Source: Syntrophomonadaceae bacterium (GTDB lineage Bacteria; Bacillota; Dethiobacteria; DTU022; PWGO01). Taken from it: a stretch of 44,542 nucleotides of DNA. Shown here one piece after another: positions 11,316 through 31,295 of this stretch. The stretch spans positions 1 through 44,542 of the forward strand of contig PUKQ01000204.1 in NCBI GenBank assembly GCA_003550565.1, given 5' to 3'. The position numbers were made by a program, and so were the translations under genes. Positions within the stretch are counted from its first letter, which is position 1. The number at the start of each line of letters is the position of its first letter. Below the pieces are notes generated by a model, which searched no databases, had not been told where the DNA came from, and saw nothing but the letters and a program-made list of their open reading frames with translations.

Positions 11316-11798
11316 TTGGCTGCCGTAATTGAACAGGAACAAGAATTTGATTATCAAAGAGCGGATGCGATAATTGAGCAGTTTTTGGGTAAAAAGGGGA
11401 TGATTATTCCGGCTTTGCAAAAGCTGCAGGATGAGTATGGTTACCTGCCGCGGCCGGCTGTAGAAAGAATGGCCAAGCGCATGCGGATTCCATCGAGCAA
11501 AGTTTACGGGGTAATTACCTTTTATGCTCAGTTTAAGCTATCGCCGCGCGGTAAGTATATCATCAGGGTTTGTAAGGGAACGGCCTGCCATATTCAGGGC
11601 AGTCCCAAAATTGCGGAAAGAATCCAGGAGATACTTCAGGTAGAAGATGGGGAAACTACTCCTGATCTTAAGTTCACTCTGGAGGAAGTAGCTTGTATTG
11701 GCGCCTGTGCTTTAGCACCGGTGATGATGATTAATGATGACCCGCACGGGAGGCTATCCCCCGATCGGATTAAAGAAATCCTTGATAGCTACGAATAA
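11316..11798 (+). CDS. NuoE-like [2Fe-2S] thioredoxin-fold subunit, cluster 1
   Basis: A 160-residue homologue of the 24-kDa subunit of complex I (NuoE), also called HydC or the gamma subunit in bifurcating hydrogenases and formate dehydrogenases. The start is TTG at 11316, after GGGAGGTT. An N-terminal helical region (LPALQKLQDEYGYLP-like: IPALQKLQDEYGYLP) leads into a thioredoxin-like domain with YGVITFYAQF. The [2Fe-2S] ligands appear as CKGTAC and CIGACALAP, the usual four cysteines. It is about 60% identical by eye to the cluster 2 copy at 16571. In such complexes this subunit pairs with the FMN/NADH-binding subunit, here two genes downstream. Confidence 0.92.
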   Translation: MAAVIEQEQEFDYQRADAIIEQFLGKKGMIIPALQKLQDEYGYLPRPAVERMAKRMRIPSSKVYGVITFYAQFKLSPRGKYIIRVCKGTACHIQGSPKIAERIQEILQVEDGETTPDLKFTLEEVACIGACALAPVMMINDDPHGRLSPDRIKEILDSYE

Positions 11799-12121: not shown

Positions 12122-13939
12122 TTGTATGAGAAGCATTTAATGCTCTGCGGAGCTACAGGATGTCTTTCTTCCGGAGCCGGCAAAATTGTAGAAGCCTTAA
12201 GGGAAGAACTTTCTAACCGGGGAATAGAGGAAAAATATCGCGTAGTTATGTCCGGTTGTCCCGGGTTTTGTGAAGTTGGGCCGATTTTGGTAGTTTATCC
12301 GGATGAAGTTTTTTATTGCCGGTTGCAACCGGATGATATTCCCAAAATAGTGGAACAGCATCTTATAGGTGGGGAAATATACGAAAAGCGCTTGTACACC
12401 GGGCCTGATGTAGAAGCACCAGCGCGTTTTTACGACACCATTCCTTTTTACTCCAAGCAGCTTTTCAATGTTTTGCGCAACAGCGGGATAATTAACCCGG
12501 AAAGCATAGACGAGTATATAATGCGCGGTGGTTATCGCGCTTTATCACGCGCGTTGACTATGGAACAACCGGAAATCATTGATGAGGTTCTGCAATCGGG
12601 CCTACGTGGGCGTGGCGGTGCCGGATTTCCTAGTGGCAAAAAATGGGAGTTTACCTATAAAGCCCCCGGTGAAAAAAAATATATAGTGTGTAATGCTGAC
12701 GAAGGTGACCCGGGAGCTTTTATGGATCGCAGTATTTTAGAAGGAGATCCCCATGCAGTGGTGGAGGGGATGTTGATTGCCGGCTTGGCCATTGGCAGTG
12801 ATGAAGGCTATATCTATTGTCGGGCAGAATACCCCCTGGCAATTGAACGCTTAAAAATTGCTATTCAGCAAGCGGAAGAATATGGGATCCTTGGTGATAA
12901 TATATTGGGCTATGGGTTTAATTTTAAATTAAATATTAAGGAAGGAGCAGGCGCCTTTGTATGTGGTGAGGAAACAGCTCTGTTGGCATCTATCGAAGGA
13001 GAAAGGGGAATGCCCCGTCCTCGGCCGCCCTTCCCGGCAAATTATGGTTTGTGGGGTAGCCCCACCTGCATAAATAATGTGGAGACATTTGGGAATGTTC
13101 CTCTTATACTCAGGGAAAATGGAGTAGAAGAATTTCAAAAAGTGGGAACGGAAGGCAGTAAAGGAACGAAAGTTTTTGCTTTGGCGGGTAAGGTTCGCAA
13201 TACCGGCTTATGCGAAGTTCCCATGGGTACTACCATCCAAGAGATTGTTTATGATGTAGGCGGCGGCATCAAGAACAACAAGGAATTTAAGGCTGTTCAA
13301 TGTGGGGGGCCCTCGGGTGGATGTATACCCAGCGATCTCCTTGATTTGCCTATTGATTATGATTCACTGACTCAAGCCGGTGCTATTATGGGTTCCGGTG
13401 GATTGGTAGTTATGGACGAAGGAACCTGTATGGTTGACCTGGCCAATTATTTCCTTAGCTTTACTCAAAAAGAATCTTGTGGAAAATGCATCCCTTGTCG
13501 GGAAGGCACCAAACGCATGCTGGAAATACTTGATCGTATTTGCGAAGGGAATGGCAAACCGGAAGATTTGGATCGGCTTGATGAACTGGCTAATAGTATT
13601 AAAGACAGTGCACTTTGCGGATTGGGGCAGACTTGCCCTAACCCTGTATTAAGCACTATACGTTATTTTCGCCATGAATATGAAGAGCATATCAATGAAG
13701 GCTTTTGCCGCTCGGGAATTTGTAAAGACCTCTTTAATTATTACATTGATGAAGAATCTTGTAACGGTTGTGGGCGCTGCGCGAAAGCCTGCCCGGTAGA
13801 AGCTATTACCGGTGAAAAGAAAGAATGTCATGCTTTAGATGTGGAGTTGTGCACCAAATGTGGCAGTTGTGTGGATAAGTGTCGTCAAAATTCAATTCGG
13901 ATTACACGTGTAGGGAGGGAAGCCGATGTCAGCAATTAA
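12122..13939 (+). CDS. NuoF-like NADH/FMN-binding subunit with extra Fe-S domains, cluster 1
   Basis: A 605-residue flavoprotein subunit that would exchange electrons with NAD(H). It starts at TTG 12122 after AGGGAGGTAAG. An N-terminal thioredoxin-like [2Fe-2S] domain (CGATGCL; SGCPGFCEVGP) precedes the NuoF core with GLRGRGGAGFPSGKKW (FMN/NADH glycine-rich loop), CNADEGDPGAFMDR and KEGAGAFVCGEETAL. The N3-type cluster motif ESCGKCIPCREG follows with a distal Cys. The C-terminus adds two [4Fe-4S] ferredoxin motifs (CNGCGRCAKACP; CTKCGSCVDKC). This layout is that of HydB/FdhF-type subunits of bifurcating hydrogenases and formate dehydrogenases. It overlaps the next gene by 14 bases. Confidence 0.93.
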   Translation: MYEKHLMLCGATGCLSSGAGKIVEALREELSNRGIEEKYRVVMSGCPGFCEVGPILVVYPDEVFYCRLQPDDIPKIVEQHLIGGEIYEKRLYTGPDVEAPARFYDTIPFYSKQLFNVLRNSGIINPESIDEYIMRGGYRALSRALTMEQPEIIDEVLQSGLRGRGGAGFPSGKKWEFTYKAPGEKKYIVCNADEGDPGAFMDRSILEGDPHAVVEGMLIAGLAIGSDEGYIYCRAEYPLAIERLKIAIQQAEEYGILGDNILGYGFNFKLNIKEGAGAFVCGEETALLASIEGERGMPRPRPPFPANYGLWGSPTCINNVETFGNVPLILRENGVEEFQKVGTEGSKGTKVFALAGKVRNTGLCEVPMGTTIQEIVYDVGGGIKNNKEFKAVQCGGPSGGCIPSDLLDLPIDYDSLTQAGAIMGSGGLVVMDEGTCMVDLANYFLSFTQKESCGKCIPCREGTKRMLEILDRICEGNGKPEDLDRLDELANSIKDSALCGLGQTCPNPVLSTIRYFRHEYEEHINEGFCRSGICKDLFNYYIDEESCNGCGRCAKACPVEAITGEKKECHALDVELCTKCGSCVDKCRQNSIRITRVGREADVSN

Positions 13940-16328
13940 TCTAACCATAGACGGTCAGCAAGTGGAGGTGGAACCTGGCACCACAATTTTGCAAGCAGCG
14001 GAAAAGCTGGGTATTGATATACCTACTTTCTGTTATGATCCGGACTTGACACGTAATGCTGCTTGCCGGATGTGCGTGGTAGAAGTGGAAAAAGCGCGGG
14101 CTTTAGTGGCGTCGTGTAGTGCACCTGTAGCGCCTGATATGGTGGTGCACACAGAAACTGAGCGAACTCGCAAAGCCAGGGAGATTATTTTGAGGCTAAT
14201 CTTAGCCAACCATTATTTAGATTGTGTTACCTGCGAAAAAACCGGGGAATGCAAGTTACAGGATTATTGTTACCGCTATGGCATTTCTTCCAGTGATTTC
14301 GTGGGGGCTACCAAAGAACTTTCCCTTGATGATACCAACCCCTTCTTTGTGAGGGACATGAACAAGTGTCTCCTTTGCGGACGCTGCGTGGGTAAGTGTC
14401 AAAACGTAAACGGCGCCGGGGCAATTGATTTTACCCAGCGGGGTTTTAAATCGAATGTAGGGACTCCTTTTGGAGATCCGATTGAAAATTCTACCTGTGA
14501 TTTTTGCGGTATGTGCATTGAAGCCTGCCCTGTAGGGGCCTTGGTTCCTAAATCCCGTATAGGCCGAGGGCGTCCTTGGGAAATAGAAAAGGTCAAAACT
14601 ATCTGCCCTTACTGTTCTACCGGATGTTCACTGGAACTTCATGTAAATATAGAGTCGGATAGTGAAGAAGAGATGGTTATTGATGCTACTGCAGATGAAG
14701 AGGCACCGGTAAACCAGGGTAGAATTTGTGCCAGGGGAAGTTTCGGTTGGGATTTCATCCATAATGAACACAGATTAACCATGCCTTTGGTTAAACAAGA
14801 TGGAGTTTTTGTAGAAGTAGAGTGGGAAGAAGCGCTGGAAATTATTGCGGAGAAATTACAGGAGCTAAAAATTAATTTTGGGGATGATTCTCTGGGTGGT
14901 TTAGTTTCCAGCCGGCTTTCCAATGAAGAAATTTATCTTTTCCAAAAATTATTGCGCTCCTGGGGAACCAATAATGTAGATCATATTTCTCACTACCATT
15001 ATAGTTCTTCACCGCATACAACGGAGGCTTTATTCAAAAGCGGTGTGATGGGCAGTGACATAGATGATCTGAACAATGCAGACTTGATTATGGTGGTTAA
15101 TTCCCATCTTGCAAGTTCACATCCGGTACTTAATTACCGGTTGCGAGAGGCGGCCCGTAATGGGACCAAAGTAATTGCCATCAATCCGGAGGAACAGGAT
15201 GATGCTGATCCTGCACACCTTTACATTTCCCCGGAAATTGGTGCGGATGAATTTCTACTGAATGGTTTGATCAATGTAATCATTGCCGAAAATATAGCTC
15301 AGGGTGAAGGTGCAAAAGACAGCGCAGTTTTTGAGGATATTAAAAAAGCTGTAAGCAAGAATACAGCCGAACAAGTAGAAAAAGTAACGGGTGTATCTGT
15401 TTCAGATATCCAGGAAGCAGCCCGCAGCTATGCCAATGCTGAACGTCCTTTAATACTTTTTGACTCTGCAAACTTTAAAAAGGGCTCGGGTTTGAAGGGC
15501 GTAAGAGCTATGTTAAGGTTGGCCGCTGTCGCCGGTAAAAATAGTGGTCCTCCCGCTGGAGTAAATTTCCTGCCGGACTTTAATAACTCTCAAGGTGCCT
15601 GCCTTATGGGAGCGCTGCCGAATTTCCTTCCTTCTCTGCAAAGTATAGAGGATAATAAGGCCAGAGAGAGTTTTTCCAAGGCATGGGCAACCGAGTTGAA
15701 TGCCCAACCCGGGTTAACAGCGCAAGAAATGATAGAGCAAGCATTTAAAGGCACACTTCAGGGCATGTTTATCGCGGGAGAAAACCCGGTTGTAGAGAGC
15801 AGTGAACAAGATTATGTCGTGGAAGCATTGCAAAATATAGAATTTTTAGTTGTCCAGGATTTGTTCCTAACTGAAACTGCTCAGCACGCTGATGTGGTGC
15901 TTCCTGCTGCTGCATTTGCAGAAAAATTAGGAACGTATATTAATGTGGAAGGACGGGTACAGCTTAGTTATCCTGCTTTAGAGCCTCCAGAAGATGCCAT
16001 GCCAGGTAGTGAAATTTTAGCTAATCTGGCAGATTACCTGGGAATGGATTGGTCTTCTTTCTTAATGGAAGATGTATTCCGGGAAATGGCTTCATTGTCT
16101 TCGGCTTTGGAAGGAATGAATTATGAGCAGTTGGGCTGTGTAAATAATCCTGTGGCTAAAGATTCCTGGCAGGACATTTTGCAGGAAATAGATAATGGAT
16201 TGGCAGCAGAAGATGAAAAGGGTTTAAAATTGCTTGAAGATGTGGAACTTAATTTTCCATACGCTACAGGTAAGGGTAAAGGGTCGATGGCTTTTCAATT
16301 GGCAGAAATAAATAATCGGGCACTTTAA
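13926..16328 (+). CDS. Formate-dehydrogenase-derived, NuoG-like subunit lacking catalytic residues
   Basis: An 800-residue paralogue of the selenoprotein encoded at 19098-21764. The N-terminus is intact: [2Fe-2S] cysteines, a His-Cys cluster (HYLDCVTC), two ferredoxin motifs (CLLCGRCVGKC; CDFCGMCIEACP) and the CPYCSTGC cluster of the molybdopterin domain. The catalytic site is not intact. By alignment with the copy-2 enzyme, Sec346 corresponds to His358, the following His to Tyr359, conserved Arg540 to Pro550 and Lys258 to Arg270. It ends near the point where copy 2 begins its C-terminal cofactor-binding domain, which is missing. The long open frame and retained Fe-S motifs argue against a pseudogene. 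I infer an electron-transfer or scaffold role like NuoG rather than formate oxidation. Confidence 0.88.
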   Translation: MSAINLTIDGQQVEVEPGTTILQAAEKLGIDIPTFCYDPDLTRNAACRMCVVEVEKARALVASCSAPVAPDMVVHTETERTRKAREIILRLILANHYLDCVTCEKTGECKLQDYCYRYGISSSDFVGATKELSLDDTNPFFVRDMNKCLLCGRCVGKCQNVNGAGAIDFTQRGFKSNVGTPFGDPIENSTCDFCGMCIEACPVGALVPKSRIGRGRPWEIEKVKTICPYCSTGCSLELHVNIESDSEEEMVIDATADEEAPVNQGRICARGSFGWDFIHNEHRLTMPLVKQDGVFVEVEWEEALEIIAEKLQELKINFGDDSLGGLVSSRLSNEEIYLFQKLLRSWGTNNVDHISHYHYSSSPHTTEALFKSGVMGSDIDDLNNADLIMVVNSHLASSHPVLNYRLREAARNGTKVIAINPEEQDDADPAHLYISPEIGADEFLLNGLINVIIAENIAQGEGAKDSAVFEDIKKAVSKNTAEQVEKVTGVSVSDIQEAARSYANAERPLILFDSANFKKGSGLKGVRAMLRLAAVAGKNSGPPAGVNFLPDFNNSQGACLMGALPNFLPSLQSIEDNKARESFSKAWATELNAQPGLTAQEMIEQAFKGTLQGMFIAGENPVVESSEQDYVVEALQNIEFLVVQDLFLTETAQHADVVLPAAAFAEKLGTYINVEGRVQLSYPALEPPEDAMPGSEILANLADYLGMDWSSFLMEDVFREMASLSSALEGMNYEQLGCVNNPVAKDSWQDILQEIDNGLAAEDEKGLKLLEDVELNFPYATGKGKGSMAFQLAEINNRAL

Positions 16329-16334
16329 AAATGT

Positions 16335-16407
16335 AAAACCCAAATTCCGCACATCCCTTTACGGTGGCTGAGGTCACTTTGTAGGGAATGCCGGAATTTG
16401 GGTTTTT
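16335..16407 (+). terminator. Long-stem intrinsic terminator between the two clusters
   Basis: AAAACCCAAATTCCG (16335-16349) pairs with CGGAATTTGGGTTTTT (16392-16407), ending in T5. The loop holds further self-complementary pieces (CATCCCT with AGGGAATG; GTG with CAC). It separates copy 1 from the selenoprotein cluster and suggests independent transcription of the two. Confidence 0.75.
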
Positions 16408-16570
16408 ATACTATATGGTGCTTAAACAAATTCTTTATCAATCAGCCGCATAATATAGATTATTATAAATATAATCAATCAATTTTTATACTTAGATGTG
16501 TTTATGTATAGAAAAAACCTAGTAGAAGGATGATTTGTAATAAAATAAATCAGAATGGAGGGAGTAAGGT

Positions 16571-17038
16571 TTGTCCAGAGAAGAATATCGAAAAATTCTA
16601 GAGCCTTACCAGGGTGAGCGAAAAGAATTAATACCTGTTCTTCAAGCGGTCCAGAACGAATTTGGGTACTTGCCGGAAGAGTCGTTTGCTATTATTGCTG
16701 AATATTTAGGAGCGCCTGAAAGTAAAATTTATGGGGTGGCTACTTTTTATGCCCAGTTTCACTTTAGTCCCCGTGGCAAATACATAATAAGGATGTGCCG
16801 CGGAACTGCCTGTCATGTTAAAGGAGTTTCTAAAGCTGCTGAAAAAATGCGGGACTTATTAGGCATAAGTGTGGGAGAAACTACTTCTGATTATAAATTT
16901 ACTTACGAGGAAGTGGCTTGCATTGGGGCTTGTGGACTTGCGCCGGTGATGATGATAAATGATCGGACTTACGGAAAGTTGACTCCGGATAAAATAAAAG
17001 AAATAATTGATAGTTATTATGAACCTGCAGAGGCATGA
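16571..17038 (+). CDS. NuoE-like [2Fe-2S] subunit, formate dehydrogenase cluster 2
   Basis: A 155-residue paralogue of the protein at 11316, starting at TTG 16571 with GGAGGGAG upstream. It has the same order: LIPVLQAVQNEFGYLPE, YGVATFYAQF, then CRGTAC and CIGACGLAP for the [2Fe-2S] cluster. It would pass electrons between the NuoF-type flavoprotein and the Fe-S chain of the formate dehydrogenase. It is the first gene of the E / small Cys / F / FdhA operon. A homology-based role in an NAD-linked, possibly electron-bifurcating, formate dehydrogenase is established for the family; bifurcation here is inference. Confidence 0.92.
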   Translation: MSREEYRKILEPYQGERKELIPVLQAVQNEFGYLPEESFAIIAEYLGAPESKIYGVATFYAQFHFSPRGKYIIRMCRGTACHVKGVSKAAEKMRDLLGISVGETTSDYKFTYEEVACIGACGLAPVMMINDRTYGKLTPDKIKEIIDSYYEPAEA

Positions 17039-17054: not shown

Positions 17055-17234
17055 ATGGAAAGGTTTATTGATCATTGCTGTGAAAAATGTGAGCATACTA
17101 AAGATAATCCTTGTGCCCAATTTGTAGAATGCAGGCTTTCAGGGCCATTATGCCATGAAAGTCAGTCCTGTGCTGAGAAGCGCAAAGCAATTATTGAAAA
17201 GTATAGCCACAGTGAAGGTTTCCAACAACATTAA
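17055..17234 (+). CDS. Small cysteine-rich protein, cluster 2 (unknown function)
   Basis: A 59-residue protein starting at ATG 17055 (a TTG lies three bases earlier), with AAAGGAGAAGG before it. Cysteines are at 8, 9, 12, 20, 26, 33 and 39, all shared with the paralogue at 11839. Also conserved are FID before the first Cys pair, KC and HTK around Cys12, FV before Cys26, GP and HE around Cys33, and EKRKAI after Cys39. The divergent C-terminus lacks cysteine. Conservation in sequence, length and position in both operons points to a real gene tied to the NuoE/NuoF module. It may bind zinc or an Fe-S cluster; its role is not known to me. Confidence 0.88.
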   Translation: MERFIDHCCEKCEHTKDNPCAQFVECRLSGPLCHESQSCAEKRKAIIEKYSHSEGFQQH

Positions 17235-17259
17235 GAATTTAAGTAAAGGAGGGGGCCAA

Positions 17260-19101
17260 GTGTACGACAAACAAATTTTGATCTGTGCCGGTACCGGTTG
17301 TATTGCTTCCGGTGCTACGGATGTCAGAGATGCTTTAGAAGAAGAGCTTAAAAAGCATGGGTTGCAAAATAAAGTTCGGATAATTCTTTCGGGATGCCAC
17401 GGTTTTTGTGAAAAAGGTCCCATTTTTATAGTGTACCCGGAAGATATTTTTTATTGTGGAGTTACTGCGGAAGATATGCCGGAATTAGTCGAAGAGCATA
17501 TGGTGAACGGTAATACAGTGGAAAGGCTTTTATATAAAGATCCCGTTACGGAAGAAGCCGTGACTTCTCATGAAGATATCCCTTTCTATAAACACCAAAA
17601 GAGAATTATTCTGCGTAATTGTGGCGTTATAGATCCGGAAAATATTGATGAATATATTATCCGGGGTGGATACCTGGGCTTGCGGAAAGCTCTCAATATG
17701 GAGTCCGGCGAAATAATTTCTAATATTAAAGACTCAGGGCTGCGTGGATTGGGCGGAGCCGGATTTCCTGCCGGCAGGAAGTGGGAAACTGCTTATAATG
17801 TAGCTGCCGATAAAAAATATGTGGTTTGTAACGCCGATGAGGGTGACCCGGGTGCATTTATGGACCGCAGTATTTTGGAAGGGGATCCTCATTCTGTACT
17901 GGAAGGGTTAATGATCGCCGGAAAGGCGATAGGTAGCGATGAAGCGTATGTTTATGTCAGAGCGGAGTACCCTCTGGCAGTGCGGCGGTTGCGGAAAGCA
18001 ATAGCCCAGGCTGAGGAGTACGGTCTTATTGGTGATAACATTCTTAATTCCGGTTTCAATTTTACTATAAATGTTAAAGAAGGAGCCGGAGCATTCGTTT
18101 GTGGAGAATCTACTGCTTTAGTTATGTCTATAGAGGGCAAGAGAGGAATGCCCAAGCCATTGCCACGTCCCCGCACTACAACTGCAGGGCTATGGGATAA
18201 GCCAACTTTGCTGAATAATGTTAAAACCTTATCGGTAGTTCCACAGATTATTAATAAAGGAGTTGAATGGTTCACCAGCGTTGGTACGGAGAAATGTAAA
18301 GGAACCGCAGTATTTGCCCTTACCGGAAAAACTAATCGGAGCGGGCTTATTGAAGTCCCTATGGGGACAAAACTGGGTGATATTATCCATGAAATTGGCG
18401 GTGGGGTCCCCGAAGGAAGAAATTTCAAAGCGGTTCAGACCGGTGGGCCTTCAGGCGGTTGCCTGCCTGCAAGTAAGTTGGATTTGCCCGTTGACTTTGA
18501 TACTCTCATAGAGGCCGGTTCCATGATGGGTTCCGGCGGAATGGTGGTTTTAGACGATTCTACTTGTATGGTTGATGTGGCCAGATATTTTTTGGATTTT
18601 ACTTATGCAGAATCTTGCGGCCAGTGCGTCCCCTGCCGATTGGGGACACACCAGATGTTGCAAATACTAAACGATATTTGTGAAGGCAGGGGGCGTGAAG
18701 ATGATATAGAACTACTTCTGGAATTGGGTGACTATATCATAAAAGGTTCAATCTGTGGATTGGGAAAAACAGCTCCCAACCCGGTTTTGAGCACTATAAA
18801 ATATTTTCGGGAAGAATATGAGCAGCATATCAGGGAAAAGCACTGTGTTGCCCTGGCGTGTAAGGAACTTATTTTATACCGGATAGATCAAGAAAAATGC
18901 AGTGCATGTGGTCGTTGTAGAAAGCAATGCCCGGCTGAGGCTATTATTGGCGAGAAAAAAGTTCCCCATGAGATAGACCAATCAAAATGCACTAAATGTG
19001 GGATTTGTTATGAAAATTGCCCCGAAAAGTTTGATGCAGTAGAAATAATTACCGGTGAGGAAAATATACCGGCTTTGAGTGGAAAGGAGGGGAACGAATG
19101 A
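17260..19101 (+). CDS. NuoF-like NADH/FMN-binding subunit of the formate dehydrogenase, cluster 2
   Basis: A 613-residue flavoprotein subunit paralogous to the one at 12122. The frame is open upstream to 17155 but overlaps the small Cys-rich gene. The GTG at 17260 follows AAAGGAGGGGG and gives MYDKQILICAGTGC, aligned with copy 1, so it is chosen. It has the N-terminal [2Fe-2S] domain (SGCHGFCEKGP), GLRGLGGAGFPAGRKW, CNADEGDPGAFMDR, KEGAGAFVCGESTAL, the ESCGQCVPCRLG cluster motif and two C-terminal ferredoxin motifs (CSACGRCRKQCP; CTKCGICYENCP). Together with NuoE it would connect NAD(H), and possibly ferredoxin, to formate oxidation or CO2 reduction. Its stop overlaps the FdhA start (ATGA). 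Confidence 0.93.
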   Translation: MYDKQILICAGTGCIASGATDVRDALEEELKKHGLQNKVRIILSGCHGFCEKGPIFIVYPEDIFYCGVTAEDMPELVEEHMVNGNTVERLLYKDPVTEEAVTSHEDIPFYKHQKRIILRNCGVIDPENIDEYIIRGGYLGLRKALNMESGEIISNIKDSGLRGLGGAGFPAGRKWETAYNVAADKKYVVCNADEGDPGAFMDRSILEGDPHSVLEGLMIAGKAIGSDEAYVYVRAEYPLAVRRLRKAIAQAEEYGLIGDNILNSGFNFTINVKEGAGAFVCGESTALVMSIEGKRGMPKPLPRPRTTTAGLWDKPTLLNNVKTLSVVPQIINKGVEWFTSVGTEKCKGTAVFALTGKTNRSGLIEVPMGTKLGDIIHEIGGGVPEGRNFKAVQTGGPSGGCLPASKLDLPVDFDTLIEAGSMMGSGGMVVLDDSTCMVDVARYFLDFTYAESCGQCVPCRLGTHQMLQILNDICEGRGREDDIELLLELGDYIIKGSICGLGKTAPNPVLSTIKYFREEYEQHIREKHCVALACKELILYRIDQEKCSACGRCRKQCPAEAIIGEKKVPHEIDQSKCTKCGICYENCPEKFDAVEIITGEENIPALSGKEGNE

Positions 19102-21764
19102 TTAATTTAACTATTAATGGGGTGAAAATAGAAGCTGAAGAGGGAATGACAATATATGAAGCTGCCCAAAAAGCGGGTATATATATACCCGTTCTATGCT
19201 ATCATCCTGACCTTTCTACTTTTGGTGCCTGTAGAGTCTGCATGGTGGAAGCTAACGGAAATTTGGTGACTGCCTGCCGGCTTCCGGTTGAAGAAGGAAT
19301 GGAGGTGCAGACAAATACCAGAGAGGTGCAGGAAGTTCGCCTGTTCAATGTAGAGTTAATTTTGGCCAACCATAATCAGGACTGCCAAACATGTGTCCGC
19401 AATAATAACTGTAAGTTGCAAGAAGTATCTTCATTTGTAGGTATCGACCTTCAAAGGATGGAAAGAATAAGGCGTTTTCAGGTAGAGACTCCCGTGGATG
19501 ATAGTAATCCTTTTTTCCATCGGGACCATTCCAGATGTATTCTTTGCGGAATTTGTATCCGAGCTTGTGAAGAAGTTAATGGAGTAGCGGCATTGGATTT
19601 TGCTTTTCGCGGTTATAACACAGCAGTTAGTGTAGCTGGAAATAAGCCCCTTACCGAGTCTTCTTGTGAATCTTGTGGTGAATGTATGGAAAGGTGCCCT
19701 ACGGGAGCTTTGGCTCCGGTAAAACAGAAAACCCCCGAGCGAGAAGTAGCAAGTGTTTGCCCTTATTGTGGAGTGGGTTGTAACATTTTCCTGGGAGTGC
19801 GGGGTAAGCAAATAGTAGGGGTGAGAGGAGACAAAGAAAGTCCTGTTAACCATGGTGAGCTTTGCGTGAAAGGTAGATTTGGCTATGATTTTGTTAATCA
19901 CCCCGAAAGGCTGCAAAAGCCTTTGATTAAGAAAAAAGGTGAATTTGTCGAAGCTTCATGGGATGAAGCTTTAGATTTAGTAGCCGAGCGTTTTAAAGGG
20001 ATTACGGATAAAAACGGACCTAATGCTTTGGGAGCTCTTAGCTCGGCCCGTTGTTCCAATGAAGATAATTACCTCTTTCAGAAATTAATCCGGAGCCTGG
20101 GAACCAATAACGTAGATCACTGTGCCCGGCTTTGACACGCGCCAACAGTAGCCGGTCTGGCTACAGTATTCGGGAGCGGCGCAATGACAAACAGCATTGG
20201 AGAAATAACCGGAGCTGATGCTCTGTTAATTATTGGTTCCAATACTACTGAGACTCATCCGGTAATTGGCTACCGGGTGCGTAGGGCGGTTCGTCAGGGG
20301 ACCAAACTGATTGTGGCGGATCCCCGCCGGATAAATTTAGCTACTCATTCCGCCCATATTCACCTTCAGCAAAAACCGGGCACTGATGTTGCCTTACTGA
20401 ATGGGATAATTAATGTCATCATTGAAGAGAATTTGGTGGATCAATCTTTCATTGAGAAGCGCACTGAAGGCTATGATAAGTTGAAAGAAACTGTGGCAAA
20501 ATATACCCCTGAATATGTGGCAGAAATTACCGGTGTTGCTGCTGAAAATATCCGGAAGGCGGCCAGGCTTTATGGGCAGGCAGAGAATGCTGCTATCCTT
20601 TATACCATGGGTATCACGCAGCATTCTTTCGGTACAAATAATGTTTTGTCTATTGCCAATTTGGCCATGGTTACCGGCAATTTAGGCAAACCTTCCACCG
20701 GGGTTAATCCCCTGCGGGGGCAAAACAATGTGCAGGGAGCCTGTGATATGGGAGCATTGCCCAATGTTTTTACCGGGTACCAAAAAGTAGCTACCGAGGA
20801 GGCTCGAAATAAATTTGTTGAGGGGTGGGGAATAAAAGTTGATATTAATCCCGGCCTTACAGTTACGGAAATGTTTGATGGGGCGGATAATGGCGATATT
20901 AAGGGCATGTATATCATGGGAGAAAATCCTGTAGTGAGCGATGCCAATTCTTCTCATGTAGTAGAAGCCCTGGAGAATCTTGAATTTTTGGTAGTTCAGG
21001 ATATTTTTCTTACCGAAACTGCCCGGTATGCTGATGTGGTTCTGCCGGCGGCTTCTTTTGCAGAGAAAATAGGGACTTATACCAACACGGAGCGTCGGGT
21101 GCAATTAAGCCATGCTGCTGTTGAATCTCCGGGTGAGGCTCGCCCGGATTGGGAAATAATTACCAGACTGGCTGCCAAAATGGGGTTTGAATGGAATTAT
21201 GCAAATGCCGAAGATATATTTAAAGAAATTGCTTATCTAACGCCCAGCTATGGTGGAATGACTTATGAACGCTTAAAAGAAAAAGGTTTGCAGTGGCCTT
21301 GTCCGGATGAAAAACATCCCGGTACCACTTACTTGCACAGCGATGAATTTAAACGGGGATTGGGGCTATTTAGTGCTGTAGAATACCAGCCTCCGGCGGA
21401 AGAAACGGATAACGATTATCCTTTGATTCTTACTACAGGACGCAATCTTTTCCATTATCATACCGGAACCATGACCCGTCGTTCTGAAGGTCTGTTGGAA
21501 TACCGTCCTGAAGAATTGGTGCAAATTAATCCCGATGATGCGGCGCAATTAAAAATAGAAGATGGTGATCAGGTAGAGGTAATTTCTCGCCGGGGGAAAG
21601 TAAAGGCAAAAGCTTCTCTTACCGAGGTGGTTATGCCCGGCGTAGTTTTTATGACTTTCCATTACCATGAAGCCCTTACTAATCTTCTAACCAACAGCGC
21701 TCTTGATCCCGTAGCCAAAACTCCGGAACTTAAAACCTGTGCCGTTAAAGTAATAAAGGCATAA
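19098..21764 (+). CDS. fdhA: Selenocysteine-containing formate dehydrogenase catalytic subunit
   Basis: The gene is one 888-residue reading frame with an in-frame TGA at 20133-20135 (codon 346) read as selenocysteine. The residues around it, DHCARL-Sec-HAPTVAG, are the formate dehydrogenase active site. The sequence continues in frame after the TGA with all family motifs. The enzyme oxidises formate or reduces CO2 at a Mo or W bis-pterin centre. The N-terminus has a [2Fe-2S] domain, a His-Cys cluster (HNQDCQTC), two ferredoxin motifs ([23 protein letters not shown]) and the CPYCGVGC cluster, followed by Lys258. Arg540 lies in [20 protein letters not shown]. The C-terminal pterin-binding domain is present. 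Standard gene callers would split it into 19098-20135 and 20184-21764. Confidence 0.97.
20133..20164 (+). promoter_or_regulatory. Selenocysteine UGA codon with bacterial SECIS hairpin
   Basis: After TGA (20133-20135), GTAGCC (20148-20153) and GGCTAC (20159-20164) form a perfect 6-bp stem around the 5-nt loop GGTCT. A GGUCU-type loop at this distance is also the key feature of the E. coli fdhF SECIS recognised by SelB (established knowledge). It supports recoding of this codon. Confidence 0.9.
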
Positions 21765-21770
21765 AAAATC

Positions 21771-21800
21771 AGCCTGGCCTTAAATAAAAGAGGCCAGGCT
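21771..21800 (+). terminator. Hairpin terminator after fdhA
   Basis: AGCCTGGCCT (21771-21780) and AGGCCAGGCT (21791-21800) form a perfect 10-bp stem with a 10-nt loop just after the fdhA stop. There is no good T-run, so it may be a weak or bidirectional terminator or a 3' stabiliser. Confidence 0.6.
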
Positions 21801-21943
21801 GTGATTTGTCAACTATCTGAATATTTAGTAAAGATGGTTATTGAATAAGTCCCCTGACAGCTCTAATCACCTGATGAAGCGTCTGAAAATAATCTTGCTA
21901 TTTTAGGTGTTTCCAAAATATAGATTGTTCCGGAGGTGGCATT

Positions 21944-22780
21944 ATGGAGCAAAATTATAATTATGCTCCGCGAGAGATCATCAAAGTTAAAGAAGGTATT
22001 CCCGAAAAGATGGAGGATAAAGTAGCCAGGGAAGAACCGGTGACCATTTTTTTAAATGATAAAGAGTTGGTCACCATGATGGCTACTCCGGTGGATTTAG
22101 AATATTTAGCCCTGGGTTTTTTATGTTCTGAAGGTTTTTTAGAAAGCAAAGACGATGTATTAAAGCTCCATGCTGATATAGAAAAAGGCTTGATATATGT
22201 TAATAGTAAAGAAGAAAAAGCAGCGTGGGCTGAGCAATTATACGGGCGCCGTACCATCACCACCGGTTGTGGAAAAGGCTCAACTTTTTTTAGCGCGTGG
22301 GATTCCTTGCGCAGCAGGCCTGCAAATGATGAATTTCGGGTTGATGCTTCCTGGATTCTTTTCCTGGTTAAATCTATGCAAGAAAAGGCACAAATATTTA
22401 GAGAAACGGGTGGTGTTCACAGTGCAGCCCTTGGCGATGAGAAAGGGATCCAAATATTTACCGAAGATGTGGGCAGACATAATGCTTTAGATAAAATTGT
22501 GGGTCAATGTTTTTGGAAAGATATTTCCCTAACAGATAAAGTACTTATTTCCAGTGGACGGATTTCATCGGAAATGATGTTAAAGGCTGCCAAGCTGCAA
22601 GTCCCGGTGGTAGTTTCTCGAGCAGCTCCTACTACCCTGGGCGTTGATTTGGCGGAAAAAATGTCTATTACCATGGTGGGATTCGCCCGAAATAAACGCC
22701 TCAATATTTACAGCTGCCCGGAAAGAATAGTAATGGATAATTCCAGTAAGGGAGGAAGTTGCGCCGATTATGAACCGTGA
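21944..22780 (+). CDS. fdhD: Formate dehydrogenase accessory sulfurtransferase FdhD
   Basis: FdhD carries sulfur from the IscS-type desulfurase to the molybdenum cofactor of formate dehydrogenase and is needed for its activity. The 278-residue protein has TTGCGKGS with Cys109. In E. coli this place holds a CxxC pair; here only one cysteine is present. Other family blocks are FCSEG-type text (FLCSEGF), GGVHSAAL, EDVGRHNALDKIVG, SSGRISSEMMLKAA, VSRAAPTTLGVDLA and GFARNKRLNIYS. A TTCCGGAGGTGG ribosome site precedes the ATG. It lies 180 bases after fdhA, past a hairpin, so it may be partly co-transcribed. Its position supports an active formate dehydrogenase in copy 2. Confidence 0.95.
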   Translation: MEQNYNYAPREIIKVKEGIPEKMEDKVAREEPVTIFLNDKELVTMMATPVDLEYLALGFLCSEGFLESKDDVLKLHADIEKGLIYVNSKEEKAAWAEQLYGRRTITTGCGKGSTFFSAWDSLRSRPANDEFRVDASWILFLVKSMQEKAQIFRETGGVHSAALGDEKGIQIFTEDVGRHNALDKIVGQCFWKDISLTDKVLISSGRISSEMMLKAAKLQVPVVVSRAAPTTLGVDLAEKMSITMVGFARNKRLNIYSCPERIVMDNSSKGGSCADYEP

Positions 22781-23330: not shown

Positions 23331-23450
23331 TATATAGTAGGAAAAATTTCAGGGAAGCGGTATTTAATATACCAAAGAACTTAATAATATTTAATGAGCT
23401 ATTTTAAAAAAGTGGCAGAGATGCTTATTGTCCAATAAGGAGTGAGTTGT

Positions 23451-24530
23451 GTGCCGGAGGAAAGAGTTTTAATAAGGGGTTGTGTTGCCTTAGCCCAAGG
23501 AGCAATACAGGCAGGATGTCGTTTTTATTTCGGTTATCCTATAACACCTCAAAATGACATTCCCGAGTACCTTTCCGAACATCTTCCCCGGGCGGGAGGA
23601 GTTTTCATTCAGGCAGAAAGTGAATTGGCTTCTATAAACATGTTAATGGGTGCAGCTGCTGCAGGAGAAAGGGCTATGACATCTTCTTCTGGTCCGGGAA
23701 TATCTCTTATGCAGGAAGGTATATCTTATATGGCAGGTTCTGAACTGCCGGGGGTAATAGTGAACGTTACCCGCAGTGGTCCGGGATTAGGTGGCATTGC
23801 TCCCACGCAGGGAGATTACAAGCAGGCTACTCATGGTGGGGGGCACGGTGACTATCGTATGATTGTACTTGCGCCAAATTCTGTGCAGGAAATGCACGAT
23901 CTTACTATGGAAGCTTTTAACCTGGCTGATGCTTACCGCAACCCGGCTATGATTTTAACAGACGCTATCCTGGGACAAATGAAAGAGCCCATGCTAATTG
24001 AAAATCGCTTATCAAAAGCACCACCCAAACCCTGGGCTGTAACGGGAGCTAAGGGGAGGTCTCCGCAGCTTGTAAAATCCTTATACCTCAAGGAAGGCGA
24101 AATGTTCGAGCATAACTGGAAAATGTATGAAAAATATCAAGAGCTTGCGAAAAATGAAGTCCGGGCCGAAGTGGACTTGCCGGAAAAGGCAGATTTAGTG
24201 CTTGTCTCATTTGGTTCCTGCTCACGAGTAGTTCAAACAGCGGTTAAAAAGGCTCGCCAGAGAGGTGTAAATGTAGGCATGGTAAGACCTATAACACTTT
24301 TCCCGTTTCCAATGGAAACAATCCGTAACGCAGTGAAGCAAACCGGTCGAGCTCTGGTAGTAGAAATGAATACAGGTCAGATGGTAGATGATGTAAGATT
24401 GGCTGCTGCCAAAGAAGGAGAAATTTATTTCAAAGGATATCCGGGTGGAGCTATACCTACACCTGGCGAAATTGAGGAAGAAATTGACAAACTATGTGAA
24501 GTGGGTGAAAAAAATGTCGCAGGCAGCTGA
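23451..24530 (+). CDS. vorB: 2-oxoacid:ferredoxin oxidoreductase alpha subunit, VorB-type
   Basis: A 359-residue subunit binding the pyrimidine side of TPP. Two GTG codons are possible: 23442 sits inside the ribosome site AAGGAG, so I choose 23451. The sequence has FYFGYPITPQNDIPEYLSE, QAESELASINM, TSSSGPGISLMQEG, GGPGLGG-type text (SGPGLGGIAPTQGDY) and GGGHGDYR, all close to the branched-chain 2-oxoacid (VorB) and 2-oxoglutarate (KorA) enzymes. Substrate cannot be fixed from motifs: the VorB-like text favours 2-oxoisovalerate, while succinyl-CoA genes nearby would fit 2-oxoglutarate. Product is the corresponding acyl-CoA plus CO2, with electrons to ferredoxin. It overlaps the beta-subunit gene. 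Confidence 0.88.
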   Translation: MPEERVLIRGCVALAQGAIQAGCRFYFGYPITPQNDIPEYLSEHLPRAGGVFIQAESELASINMLMGAAAAGERAMTSSSGPGISLMQEGISYMAGSELPGVIVNVTRSGPGLGGIAPTQGDYKQATHGGGHGDYRMIVLAPNSVQEMHDLTMEAFNLADAYRNPAMILTDAILGQMKEPMLIENRLSKAPPKPWAVTGAKGRSPQLVKSLYLKEGEMFEHNWKMYEKYQELAKNEVRAEVDLPEKADLVLVSFGSCSRVVQTAVKKARQRGVNVGMVRPITLFPFPMETIRNAVKQTGRALVVEMNTGQMVDDVRLAAAKEGEIYFKGYPGGAIPTPGEIEEEIDKLCEVGEKNVAGS

Positions 24531-25293
24531 AAAAAAAGTATTTAGTAAGCCCTCCTGTTTAAAACCCAATCCGTTTCATTTTTGTCCCGGTTGTCATCAC
24601 GGGGTTATTCATCGTCTTATTGCTGAAAGCATTGACTTTCACGAAATTGCTTCTCAAGCGGTTGCCGTTATTGGTGTAGGGTGTGGGGTGTTTTTATATA
24701 ATTATATTGCGGTGGATGCGTGCGAGGCTCCTCATGGGAGAGCCCCTGCTCTGGCAACTGGTTTAAAAAGAGCTTCACCTGATAGCGTAGTGTTTACCTA
24801 TCAGGGCGATGGAGACTTAGGGGCCATTGGTACTTCAGAGATAATTCACGCGGCTAATCGAGGAGAAAATATTACTGTGTTTTTTGTGAATAATAGTGTT
24901 TATGGTATGACTGGCGGTCAGATGGCTCCAACTACCCTTAGTGGCCAAAAAACTACCACCTCTCCCTTAGGAAGAAATTACCAGAGTGACGGATACCCCC
25001 TGCGAGTGGCGGAGTTGATTGCTTCTTTAGAGGGCAGTACTTATGTAGAAAGAGTAGCCTGCCATACCCCTAAATTAATTAACCGTGCCCGTAAAGCAGT
25101 ACTCCGGGGCATGAAAATACAAATACAGGGAAAAGGTTTTTCCCTCATTGAGTTTATTTCAGCTTGTCCCACAAATTGGCGATTGCCTCCTGATAAGGCT
25201 GTAGAGAGAATGGAGGAAACCATGCTGGAGGTGTATCCTTTAGGGGTTTACAAGGATCCTGCTACTCAGGGCCTGAATTTAGATGAAGCATGA
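24514..25293 (+). CDS. 2-oxoacid:ferredoxin oxidoreductase beta (TPP-binding) subunit
   Basis: A 259-residue subunit starting at ATG 24514 inside the end of the alpha gene (17-base overlap, weak ribosome site, likely coupled). The upstream frame is open to 24445, but the family N-terminus LKPNPFHFCPGCHHG fits the later start. The TPP/Mg motif is GDGDLGAIG followed by NNSVYGMTGGQM about 28 residues on. PTTLSGQKTTTSPLGR is a family block near the substrate site. It catalyses the decarboxylation step with the alpha subunit. Together with delta, alpha and gamma subunits it completes the enzyme. Confidence 0.92.
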   Translation: MSQAAEKKVFSKPSCLKPNPFHFCPGCHHGVIHRLIAESIDFHEIASQAVAVIGVGCGVFLYNYIAVDACEAPHGRAPALATGLKRASPDSVVFTYQGDGDLGAIGTSEIIHAANRGENITVFFVNNSVYGMTGGQMAPTTLSGQKTTTSPLGRNYQSDGYPLRVAELIASLEGSTYVERVACHTPKLINRARKAVLRGMKIQIQGKGFSLIEFISACPTNWRLPPDKAVERMEETMLEVYPLGVYKDPATQGLNLDEA

Positions 25294-25328
25294 TCAAAGA
25301 CTTGTAAATAAGATTGGAGGTATTGCTC

Positions 25329-25898
25329 TTGGAATATACAGTGGTTATGTCCGGGTTTGGGGGCCAGGGGGTTCTTTTAATGGGAGATTTATTGGCCTAT
25401 AGTGCCATGAAGGCAGGTCTTCAAGTAACCTGGATGCCTTCTTACGGGGTAGAGATGCGAGGAGGTACGGCTAATTGTACAGTAGTTGTTTCAGATGAAA
25501 AAATAGGTTCACCCATCGTAGATAGACCAACAGCAGTTTTGGCTATGAATCTTCCCGCCATGGAAAAGTTTCAGGCTTACCTTCCTTCCGGTGGACTGTT
25601 ATTGGTTAATAGTACTATAGTTAAAAAGGTAGAGAATCCCCGTGATGATGTGAAAATTATTATGGTTCCTACCCAAAAGTTAGCGGAAGAAGCCGGTGAC
25701 AAAAAAATGAGCAACATTGCTATGTTGGGGGCTTTTCTTGGTGCAAGCAATGTTTTATCGGTAGATTTTATTGAAGAATGCCTGGATTCTTTTTTACCTG
25801 CAGAACGAAAAAAACTATTACCCCGTTTCGGACAAACTCTTCGTCTGGGCAAGGATTTTGTGAATGGTAACTTTAACCAACATGAAGCTTGTTCATAA
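25329..25898 (+). CDS. 2-oxoacid:ferredoxin oxidoreductase gamma subunit
   Basis: A 189-residue protein with [19 protein letters not shown] at its N-terminus and [18 protein letters not shown], both typical of the gamma (CoA-side) subunit. The frame is open to 25314, but GGAGG at 25315-25319 makes the TTG at 25329 the likely start. The C-terminus is a short helical region ending before a convergent gene. It is the last gene of the delta-alpha-beta-gamma set, 35 bases after the beta subunit. Confidence 0.92.
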
Positions 25899-25969
25899 CA
25901 AATTTTTAAAGTATAAGGTATTTAATGGTGGCATGAAAGTTTAGAAGATGTTTTTTAAGGTCTGCCAGT

Positions 25970-26878
25970 TTAGCTTTCTGTTGGATGCTTAATAAGGTTC
26001 ATTTGCTTCATATCAGCCTCAGAGGGAGTATCTTCACTTTGCTGAGTAATTTTAGAAAACTCGGGTAAATCTAAAGATAGTTTTACAGCCGAAACATTTA
26101 CTTCCTTAAGGTAGAAACCGGTTAAATATTCCAGGTGTTTTTTGATTATTTTTTGGGTTTCCATCAATGTATCTTTCATATTTGGGTAGAGGTATAGGGT
26201 AAGATCTATTTCTAAAATTATTCCCCTTGCATTAGAAAGGACTTTAACTTTGTTCACTTTCTGAATTGCCGGCACCTCTTCACATAGATATGTAACCAGA
26301 TTTATTATTACCTGTTCCGCTATAAAAAAATTTCCTAATGTGCTGTATACGGGGCGAACAATAGAACGCTCCATAGAAAGTTTTTTTTGCCCGGAGCGAT
26401 TAAAAATAGAACGTAAGGGAGAAATAAGGTAACCCGGAAAGTCTTTTTTGATGGCAAAGTGGGGCAGGGGAACCACATGACGGTTTTTAGTTTTTCTTAA
26501 TTTGAGGGCCTTTTCAATTGTTTTTGGAGGAAGGATGTCTTCAATGTGAATATACTTTTCCGGAATCGGGAGTTCCAACTTTTGGCTTAATCTCTGGGCC
26601 ATACGCTCCGAAGTGGCAATTAATAATATTTTGGGTGGGGTTAATTCTTTTAGTTTTTGTTTTATTTCCGCTGCATGTTCTGGATTTGTCAAAAGGGCGC
26701 GCCGGGCGGCTCCAATACGTGTAGCTTCTCGTTTGGCTGACCAGCCTGCCACTACCTGATTGTTTTGAATAAGAAGGCCATCATCGAGAATAAGGGAAAT
26801 ATTGTTTTCGTGAGCTAAGCGGGAGGCATGATGGCTTTTACCGGTTCCGCTTGCGCCTATCAAGGCATAAACTTTCAT
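25970..26878 (-). CDS. P-loop NTPase fused to an Asp23/Gls24-like domain
   Basis: A 302-residue protein on the opposite strand, preceded by AAAGGAACCC. The N-terminus is a P-loop kinase-like domain with GASGTGKS (residues 8-15) and an aspartate pair (ILDDG) near residue 31. From about residue 165 to 275 the text (SNARGIILEIDLTLYLYP; TGFYLKEVNVSAVKLSL) resembles the Asp23/Gls24 alkaline-shock fold. That fold is common in Firmicutes near the cell envelope. The fusion of the two is unusual, and no catalytic role beyond ATP/GTP binding can be read. It converges on the gamma-subunit gene and diverges from sucC, so it is its own transcription unit. The function is unknown. Confidence 0.7.
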   Translation of the reverse strand: MKVYALIGASGTGKSHHASRLAHENNISLILDDGLLIQNNQVVAGWSAKREATRIGAARRALLTNPEHAAEIKQKLKELTPPKILLIATSERMAQRLSQKLELPIPEKYIHIEDILPPKTIEKALKLRKTKNRHVVPLPHFAIKKDFPGYLISPLRSIFNRSGQKKLSMERSIVRPVYSTLGNFFIAEQVIINLVTYLCEEVPAIQKVNKVKVLSNARGIILEIDLTLYLYPNMKDTLMETQKIIKKHLEYLTGFYLKEVNVSAVKLSLDLPEFSKITQQSEDTPSEADMKQMNLIKHPTES

Positions 26879-27072
26879 GGAAAGGGTTCCTTTCTATTCT
26901 ATCGATAATCATGTCAAAACAATATCTTTAATTAGGCTTAATTATAGCATACTCTATATCAGTTTTGAAAATTTAAAATAAAATTATGAGGTTTCTCTTT
27001 TTGCAGGATTTTATCTTAAATTTTTAGAATATCATTACGAAGGGATATAAATTCATTTTTTGTTTATGTTAG

Positions 27073-27102
27073 TTGTGAATCGAGTATAGGATGCTATATA
27101 AT
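27073..27102 (+). promoter_or_regulatory. sucC: Probable promoter of the sucC-mmdA operon
   Basis: TTGTGA (27073-27078) and a perfect TATAAT (27097-27102) with an 18-base spacer, 27 bases before the sucC start. Confidence 0.6.
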
Positions 27103-27129
27103 AGTTAATATTGGTTTAAGGAGGTAGTT

Positions 27130-28251
27130 ATGAAGTTATATGAGTATATGGGCAAAGATTTATTTGCTCATTATGGGGTAAAAGTAGAATTATCACGGAT
27201 GGTGAAAACTCCTGCCGAGGCCCGTAGTGCGGCGGAAGAAATGGGGCCGGTAGTGGTAAAAGCTCAGGTTCTCTCCGGAAAGAGGGGAAAAGCCGGGGTT
27301 ATTTCTATTGTAGATAGCCCGGATGAAGCATACCGGGAAGCGGAGCGTATTTTACAGCAAGAAGTAGATGGGGAACAGGTAAAGTGTTTGTTGGTGTCGC
27401 AAAAAGTAATTATACATCAGGAACTATACCTGGCTATAACAGTAGATGGAAAAAGTCGCCGTCCAATTATCCTTGCTTCGTCCCATGGGGGTATGGATGT
27501 AGAAGAGGTGCCCGAAGGTGGAATGATAAAATGGCCTTTGGATATAAGTATGGGGTATCTCCCTTTTATGGGAAGGGAAATTGGGTTTCGTATGGGGTTG
27601 CAGGGTGCACTAGTTCACCGTTTTAGTGATCTATTGGGAAAACTTTATCATATGTTTCGGGCTACTGATGCCGAGCTGGTAGAGATAAACCCTCTGGCAG
27701 TTTGTGGTGAAGAGTTAATTGCCATTGACTCCAAGGTGAATATAGACGATGACGCTTTACAGCGGCAGCCTGAGTTGCCAAGAGTTCAAGAAAAAACAGC
27801 CCTGGAGAAAAAAGCTCAGGAGATGGATATAGCCTATGTGGATCTGGGTGGTGATATTGCTGTTATGGCCAATGGCGCCGGTATTACCATGGCCACTCTT
27901 GATCTGGTCCAGTATAACGGAGGGACTCCGGCTAACTTTCTTGATTTTGGTGGAGGCGCCGGAGTGGAAAAAACTTCTCAGGCAATGGAACTCATGCTGG
28001 GTACAAATCCAAAAGTAATATTAGTTAATATTTTTGGGGGAATTACCCGCTGTGATGATGTGGCCCGTGCTTTTGCTTCTGTTAAAGAAAACAAGGATAT
28101 TAATATACCGGTATTTTTCCGGCTGGTGGGAACCAATGAAGATGAGGGGCGGCAGGTGCTTAGGGAAATCGGTATTGAAGCATACAGTTCCATGGAAGAA
28201 GCGGTCCGCCGGGCTGTAGAAGCTTCTATAGGCAAGGAGGAGGTTAATTAA
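27130..28251 (+). CDS. sucC: Succinyl-CoA synthetase beta subunit SucC
   Basis: The 373-residue beta subunit binds nucleotide and forms succinyl-CoA from succinate, or makes ATP in reverse. AAGGAGGTAG precedes the ATG. The ATP-grasp N-terminus (KLYEYMGKDLFAHYGV; VVKAQVLSGKRGKAGVI) and C-terminal FLDFGGGAG and VNIFGGITRCD are family hallmarks. The ATP or GTP preference is not evident. Its stop overlaps the sucD start by one base (TAATG). The gene begins an operon that runs on into methylmalonyl-CoA mutase, so in this organism it probably serves the succinate/propionate route. Confidence 0.95.
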   Translation: MKLYEYMGKDLFAHYGVKVELSRMVKTPAEARSAAEEMGPVVVKAQVLSGKRGKAGVISIVDSPDEAYREAERILQQEVDGEQVKCLLVSQKVIIHQELYLAITVDGKSRRPIILASSHGGMDVEEVPEGGMIKWPLDISMGYLPFMGREIGFRMGLQGALVHRFSDLLGKLYHMFRATDAELVEINPLAVCGEELIAIDSKVNIDDDALQRQPELPRVQEKTALEKKAQEMDIAYVDLGGDIAVMANGAGITMATLDLVQYNGGTPANFLDFGGGAGVEKTSQAMELMLGTNPKVILVNIFGGITRCDDVARAFASVKENKDINIPVFFRLVGTNEDEGRQVLREIGIEAYSSMEEAVRRAVEASIGKEEVN

Positions 28252-29117: not shown

Positions 29118-29175
29118 TGTTGTTTTTGGGGACATTTAAGGAAAATCTATTAACTTAGGATAAAGGAGGTTTTCC

Positions 29176-30852: not shown

Positions 30853-30899
30853 TGTATTTATAAAGTTTAATCTTATTCGTCTAAAGGGGGAAAGCTTCC

Positions 30900-31295
30900 A
30901 TGGCCTCAGCGCCTATACGTGTGTTAGTGGGAAAAGTGGGACTTGACGGGCATGATCGGGGGGCAAAAGTAGTAGCCCAAGCTCTGAGAAATGCCGGTAT
31001 GGAAGTAATCTATACCGGTTTGCGCCAAACTCCTGAAACAATTGTAGAAACAGCTTTACAGGAAGATGTTCATGTTATCGGTATAAGTATGCTTTCCGGA
31101 GCTCATAATGAATTATTACCGGAAATACCCAAGCTGCTAAAAGAGAATAATGCCGAAGATGTGATTGTTGTAGCAGGTGGAATTATCCCCAAGGAAGACA
31201 TTCCACCATTAAAAAAAGCCGGCATTGCAGAAATTTTCACGCCTGGAGTTTCTACGCAAGATATTGTGGAATTTATCAAAGAGCATGTAAAATAA
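30900..31295 (+). CDS. Methylmalonyl-CoA mutase, small B12-binding subunit
   Basis: A 131-residue cobalamin-binding domain. The D-x-H-x-x-G motif is Asp16, His18 and Gly21 in GLDGHDRG, where His18 is the lower axial ligand of cobalt. SMLSGAH and [10 protein letters not shown] are the other B12-pocket blocks. It pairs with the large subunit encoded 47 bases upstream; GGGGGAAAG precedes its ATG. Length and motifs match the stand-alone C-terminal domain of the mutase. Confidence 0.95.

Follow-up and report, generated by a model that had tools for sequence, protein, structure and literature searches.

A C-terminally truncated formate dehydrogenase subunit without its active-site residues in a NuoE-NuoF operon of a Syntrophomonadaceae bacterium

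Gene content of the locus and the former formate site

The 44,542-nucleotide contig PUKQ01000204.1 of a Syntrophomonadaceae bacterium (assembly GCA_003550565.1), referred to here in full as the window, carries two successive clusters of NuoE, NuoF and formate dehydrogenase-type genes (Table 1), both of which match the base composition of the window. The second cluster encodes an intact selenocysteine (Sec) formate dehydrogenase, FdhSec. The large subunit of the first cluster, FdhX, is the subject of this analysis; it retains a complete chain of iron-sulfur (Fe-S) clusters without the formate active site, and appears to be a former enzyme remodeled to pass electrons on as an adaptor, not a dying gene.

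The FdhX open reading frame (ORF) starts with ATG and runs for 800 codons with zero internal stops. Its product is 43% identical to FdhSec over 738 columns (BLASTP), and pairwise residue comparison identified the changes K258 to R270, U346 to H358, H347 to Y359 and R540 to P550. An earlier note on this DNA had named these same four substitutions, and they are exact in the alignment with FdhSec. The alterations extend far beyond them: of the positions that are invariant in 20 intact Sec or Cys enzymes, 43 of 121 are altered in residues 216–736 of FdhX, and 0 of 31 in its N-terminal Fe-S part.

Pfam matches in FdhX comprise Fer2_4, NADH-G_4Fe-4S_3, Fer4, Molybdop_Fe4S4 and Molybdopterin. The Molydop_binding domain (PF01568), matched in FdhSec with E = 6e-36, was not found in FdhX by Pfam. 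The distance from the FdhX stop to the next gene is 242 bp, too short for this domain of ~110 amino acids, and a frameshift or a C-terminus displaced past the stop was rejected, as no in-frame trace of the domain was present in these 242 bp. The Fe-S ligand positions are kept in full (20/20, in five clusters), and the cysteines of the 4Fe-4S cluster adjoining the former pterin (C227, C230, C234, and C268) are invariant in all 41 aligned sequences. Together, these comparisons bear out what the earlier note had read in the gene, namely a loss of catalysis and of the C-terminal pterin-binding domain, with all Fe-S motifs retained in a frame open for 800 codons.

An AlphaFold model of FdhX (predicted local distance difference test, pLDDT, 80.8) has a confident formate dehydrogenase-like fold to approximately residue 740, followed by a disordered tail (pLDDT < 50 for residues 758–791). 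The best PDB matches of the model are NAD-linked formate dehydrogenases, with a template modeling (TM) score of 0.83 to MeFDH1. Against the TIGR01591 family (formate dehydrogenase alpha), FdhX scores 464.8 bits, below the cut-off of 666.25, vs. 912 bits for FdhSec; it does not qualify as an NAD-linked formate dehydrogenase by the Sec/Cys-His pair, the catalytic Arg, the bridging Lys or PF01568.

In BfuB proteins, electron bifurcation is marked by five B2 ligands at conserved distances (Cys, Cys/Thr, His, Cys, Cys; PMC9304861), and non-bifurcating homologues lack the His (Schut et al., PMC9304861); the BfuA subunit of this family only feeds electrons of the third substrate into the core (PMC9304861). 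In NuoF1 the B2 ligands are C(-87), C(-49), H523, C(+6) and C(+11), identical to the published BfuB signature, and the BfuB domain set is complete (Complex1_51K, NADH_4Fe-4S, 2Fe-2S_thioredx, and two Fer4 stretches). NuoE1 contains the 2Fe-2S thioredoxin-like domain characteristic of BfuC. By domains and ligands, the NuoE1-NuoF1 core thus appears to be of the bifurcating type (Bfu family), and would presumably bifurcate electrons. As NuoF1 carries the BfuB signature, the module is probably more than an NADH:acceptor scaffold.

The genes for NuoF1 and FdhX overlap by 14 bp; an overlap of these genes recurs in orthologues and supports the earlier suggestion that FdhX would assemble with the first copy of NuoE and NuoF. 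The strong hairpin and T run directly 3' of FdhX are consistent with NuoE1-NuoF1-FdhX forming a separate transcription unit. This hairpin is present in one copy genome-wide; it was missed by a short-loop terminator scan because its loop is long, and was detected by reading and folding.

Table 1. Features of the two formate dehydrogenase clusters (window coordinates).
Feature	Position	Strand	Evidence or remark
NuoE1 / BfuC-type 2Fe-2S subunit	11316..11798	+	PF01257, E = 7e-54; 69–76% identity to NuoE of orthologous operons
NuoF1 / BfuB-type subunit	12122..13939	+	N-terminal 2Fe-2S thioredoxin-like domain, flavin mononucleotide (FMN) domain, NADH_4Fe-4S, two C-terminal Fer4; 75–81% identity to orthologues
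FdhX, C-terminally truncated FdhA/BfuA-type subunit	13926..16328	+	800 amino acids; overlaps NuoF1; without formate active site
N-terminal Fe-S relay of FdhX, residues 1–215	13926..14570	+	2Fe-2S, His/Cys3 4Fe-4S, two Fer4 clusters; conserved to the usual degree
Former catalytic part of FdhX, residues 216–736	14571..16133	+	Fifth cluster, 4Fe-4S (C227, C230, C234, C268), kept; pterin domain diverged
Lys to Arg270 codon	14733..14735	+	Lys is the 4Fe-4S/pterin bridge in active enzymes
Sec-His to His358-Tyr359 codons	14997..15002	+	Aligned residue pairs
Catalytic Arg to Pro550 codon	15573..15575	+	Aligned residue pairs
Probable terminator closing the NuoE1-NuoF1-FdhX unit	16331..16409	+	Long hairpin, then T run; RNA fold -38 kcal/mol, z = -6.8
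NuoE2 of intact neighboring cluster	16571..17038	+	Orthologue in G001
NuoF2	17155..19101	+	Pfam; B2 ligand signature present too
FdhSec, intact Sec formate dehydrogenase	19098..21764	+	U346 = TGA at 20133–20135
Terminator-like hairpin after FdhSec	21770..21801	+	Terminator scan
FdhD-like gene (formate dehydrogenase sulfurtransferase)	21944..22780	+	44–54% identity to the gene after orthologous truncated operons; putative product, named from the sequence

Orthologous operons and the ancestry of FdhX

The NuoE-NuoF-formate dehydrogenase operon, often together with an FdhD-like gene, is conserved in numerous genomes across this order. The orthologous operon encodes an intact Sec enzyme in L041, L052, L054 and L119, and in L066, which belongs to the same family as the window, a full-length Cys enzyme in which the catalytic Arg is replaced by Cys. 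A clade of truncated proteins of ~816 amino acids, spanning at least seven genus groups, lacks the same domain as FdhX and has Cys replacing Sec, Tyr replacing the Arg and a variable Lys; in one of its members (L124) the metal-ligand Cys is also gone, with Ser instead. Another member, from the metagenome-assembled genome (MAG) KA22, was pieced together from the ends of two contigs that share an exact 71-bp overlap. The tail of the truncated proteins is conserved as CxCxSExxxRSVI, with gained Cys residues (L012, L014, L018, L025, and relatives), and is apparently what is left of the beginning of the missing pterin-binding domain. In part of this clade, a beta-glucosidase-like gene (named by eye) lies between the truncated formate dehydrogenase and FdhD-like genes (L017, 10446–11801; L018, 7338–8714).

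In the trees FdhX falls within the clade of its own operon (99–100% support), apart from FdhSec. The nearest relative of FdhSec is found in G001, where the neighboring cluster occurs alone with the same downstream genes; the first cluster occurs alone in G002 and in the truncated clade, and adjacency of the two is therefore not conserved. Based on trees and synteny we rejected a local duplication of the neighboring cluster. The earlier note had taken FdhX for such a duplicate, which was not borne out because FdhX and FdhSec sit in older, separate orthologous groups; the parent is the intact Sec enzyme that relatives encode in this operon. These results indicate that the neighboring cluster is an older paralogue of the FdhX operon, and that FdhX is an active-site-less orthologue of the Sec Fdh-Bfu enzyme, not a recent duplicate.

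Placement of every non-Sec member in one clade, as expected for one common loss of catalysis, was rejected in the approximately unbiased (AU) test (p = 0.009, and p = 0.037 with more rows), where the group was defined post hoc from the tree and FdhX has a long branch. Catalysis was therefore lost at least two times. FdhX and the truncated clade are joined at 89–93% bootstrap, and the test does not reject a placement of FdhX beside the intact Sec trio (p = 0.20); given its long branch, FdhX can be placed only tentatively with respect to the truncated clade.

Proposed role and competing explanations

We consider it fairly probable that NuoE1-NuoF1-FdhX is a soluble Bfu-type NADH/ferredoxin module, in which the formate site is now a non-catalytic relay and docking scaffold for a separate partner. 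The module descends from a formate-linked Sec Fdh-Bfu. Within the NuoEF core, electrons would move between NAD(H) and ferredoxin, and they would also travel through the Fe-S clusters of FdhX as far as the 4Fe-4S cluster adjacent to where the pterin once sat; a separately encoded redox partner would replace formate by docking near this last cluster, which it would reach through the space left by the missing pterin and C-terminal domain. The absence of a molybdenum or tungsten (Mo/W) cofactor, the electron flow and the bifurcation in this module are all predicted from sequence features. Since FdhX keeps the wire without the formate site, an adaptor would be the most likely mechanism, and the invariance of the last 4Fe-4S cluster is our main ground for favoring a functional relay over a scaffold with a structural role alone.

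Several points weigh against this proposal. In the truncated-clade loci that were read, the operon holds no extra oxidoreductase gene, and in the window the hairpin splits the two clusters, so that these loci point to no particular partner. The fast-evolving pterin part of FdhX may be losing function. In addition, the genome is a draft that is ~96% complete with 6.4% estimated contamination.

The alternative that survives best, which we regard as unlikely yet worth serious consideration, is that FdhX is a BfuA of the Type 3 kind, on which a separate formate dehydrogenase catalytic subunit (FdhSec or another Sec enzyme, with its gene on a different contig) docks so that formate bifurcation continues. 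There is a precedent in the Fdh-Bfu of Gottschalkia acidurici, where A1–A5 are in BfuA and the pterin is in an extra subunit (PMC9304861). Candidate catalytic subunits are at hand, with an intact Sec enzyme next door, TGA-containing formate dehydrogenase-like frames elsewhere in the genome and Sec formate dehydrogenases in several truncated-clade genomes, and an FdhD-like gene follows the truncated operons. However, FdhSec has its own NuoE2 and NuoF2 and a full Fe-S N-terminus, a strong hairpin lies between the two clusters, and their adjacency is not conserved in G001, G002 and the truncated clade. The neighboring FdhSec is a possible partner of FdhX.

Gene decay, in which FdhX drifts toward a pseudogene after the intact Sec enzyme took over and NuoE1 and NuoF1 persist for now, appears somewhat less probable still. 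On a fixed tree, the FdhX branch of the pterin part measures 1.007 vs. a median of 0.205 for the Sec tips, and this approximately five-fold acceleration, restricted to the former catalytic part, would fit decay, as would the 43 of 121 altered invariant positions with the loss of the C-terminal domain and a tail that is unrelated and disordered. Against it, the Fe-S part evolves at a normal rate (0.209 vs. a Sec-tip median of 0.211) with all its ligands kept, and NuoF1 is strongly conserved, with an ordinary branch of 0.18. When free drift of the catalytic part to 46% identity was simulated, ~15 stops accumulated (minimum 5 in 200 runs), whereas 0 were observed in the 800 open codons.

The analogous truncated form, found in many genera, also argues against decay. 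Close pairs of the truncated clade gave a ratio of nonsynonymous to synonymous substitution rates (dN/dS) of ~0.07–0.14 for the pterin part and 0.03–0.08 for the Fe-S part, overall ~0.1, with synonymous sites near saturation in some pairs, and the ~816-amino-acid form is under purifying selection. These values are those of the truncated clade and not of the window gene, whose nearest full-length relative is ~55% identical. For the window gene alone the support is indirect, but domain-specific constraint, the predicted fold and the selection on the truncated clade argue for a maintained protein and make its decay unlikely. The earlier view that FdhX is not a decaying pseudogene therefore probably holds, with its dN/dS component transferred from the truncated clade.

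It is very improbable that FdhX is still a molybdo- or tungsto-enzyme with another chemistry, in which His358 or no protein residue would be the ligand and a second subunit would replace the lost C-terminal domain. Split pterin enzymes are known, as in FwdB/FwdD, and the invariant 4Fe-4S cluster beside the pterin site, the FdhD-like gene and the other pterin enzymes of the genome are compatible with this idea; the Lys bridge, the Arg and the His are gone, however, and many invariant positions of the pterin part are lost. A stand-alone PF01568 was not found in the genome, where matches lie inside large oxidoreductases or, in one case, at a contig edge. A split enzyme with a separate pterin-binding subunit is accordingly disfavored, with this one contig-edge match remaining.

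We attach next to no weight to FdhX as the NuoG of a complex I NADH module, for which the NuoEFG-like gene order and a full-length match to TIGR01973 (NuoG) can be cited: the score of 419.6 bits is below the cut-off of 470.05, Complex1_49kDa (PF00346) was not found in the 96%-complete genome (controls positive 11/14), and in the phylogeny FdhX falls inside the NuoEF-linked formate dehydrogenases, so that an ordinary complex I NuoG, which the earlier note had named as a reading against its own, is refuted provided that the missing few percent of the genome do not hold a membrane arm.

Related systems and genomic surroundings

The FdhX module resembles Type 1 Fdh-Bfu (PMC9304861) in its three-gene operon, the B2 signature of BfuB and the full BfuA Fe-S set, and has orthologues of this kind in the four operons with an intact Sec enzyme; it differs in the replaced Sec/Cys, His, Arg and Lys, the missing C-terminal pterin domain and the lack of a recognizable third-substrate site. 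In the Stn transhydrogenase of Sporomusa ovata, which showed no formate activity (PMC7483475), StnC has an FdhF-like domain that lacks catalytic activity and makes tetramer contacts (PMC10482914). Like Stn, the FdhX module would combine a NuoEF-type bifurcating core with a NuoG-like subunit containing an inactive FdhF-like domain, and by analogy StnC shows that such a domain can persist in these complexes. Unlike FdhX, in which Pfam found no GltD-like NADPH/FAD domain, StnC has a GltD-like NADPH domain as third-substrate site, and FdhX derives from a NuoEF-linked Sec formate dehydrogenase of its own order.

The NuoG of respiratory complex I likewise combines an Fe-S chain with a non-catalytic pterin-enzyme fold, and the same evolutionary route has been proposed for it; in contrast, complex I was not found in this genome, and FdhX is below the NuoG cut-off and has a bifurcating-type NuoF as partner. 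SfrA, the NuoG-like subunit of Geobacter SfrAB and a named relative of StnC (PMC7483475), is also a NuoG-like protein in a soluble flavoenzyme, but is paired with a GltD-like NADPH subunit, whereas FdhX is paired with NuoE and NuoF. Among the openly accessible papers searched, we found no description of an inactive formate dehydrogenase in NuoEF operons. Orphan NuoEFGI genes without a membrane arm have been reported for 'Candidatus Syntrophonatronum' and may correspond to such clusters.

Elsewhere in the same genome, an SfrAB-like pair on contig C8 (L091, 5904–10195) consists of a fusion of the NuoF C-terminal 4Fe-4S domain with GltD, followed by a 729-amino-acid NuoG-like protein without PF01568, which is by its sequence a second active-site-less formate dehydrogenase-like subunit. 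On contig C111 (L092), an FdhA/NuoG-like protein with Tyr/Asn at the Sec-His positions, its N-terminus cut by the contig end, is followed by NuoE and a 1032-amino-acid NuoF-GltD fusion. Contigs C65 and C139 encode RnfC-like proteins above the family cut-off, near Sec or pterin oxidoreductase genes, and a third RnfC is located elsewhere.

The region adjoining the formate dehydrogenase clusters (23442–33343) is a methylmalonyl-CoA (propionate) pathway block, with genes for 2-oxoacid:ferredoxin oxidoreductase, succinyl-CoA synthetase, methylmalonyl-CoA mutase with a B12 subunit, an epimerase-like glyoxalase-fold protein and a carboxyltransferase. At 38648–40318 on the minus strand, an acetolactate-synthase-like thiamine pyrophosphate (TPP) enzyme is split by one in-frame TAA near 39296, with the N and middle domains in one ORF and the C domain in the next, in the same frame; this reflects either a nonsense-broken gene or an assembly error.

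As a tentative extension, which we would sooner doubt than assert, several syntrophic-type Firmicutes lineages may independently have turned a formate-bifurcating complex into an adaptor for an external redox protein, a new Bfu type that would replay the step from formate dehydrogenase to NuoG within one order. In one conserved operon, intact Sec formate dehydrogenases, an Arg-less enzyme and truncated, active-site-less subunits with all Fe-S clusters form a natural series, and as this series exists in extant proteins, the proposed origin of NuoG from formate dehydrogenase is directly testable. Automatic labels such as 'formate dehydrogenase' or 'NuoG' on environmental genomes could ascribe to organisms a formate or complex I chemistry that they may lack. 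The FdhX series points to a further partner of the bifurcating NuoEF core.

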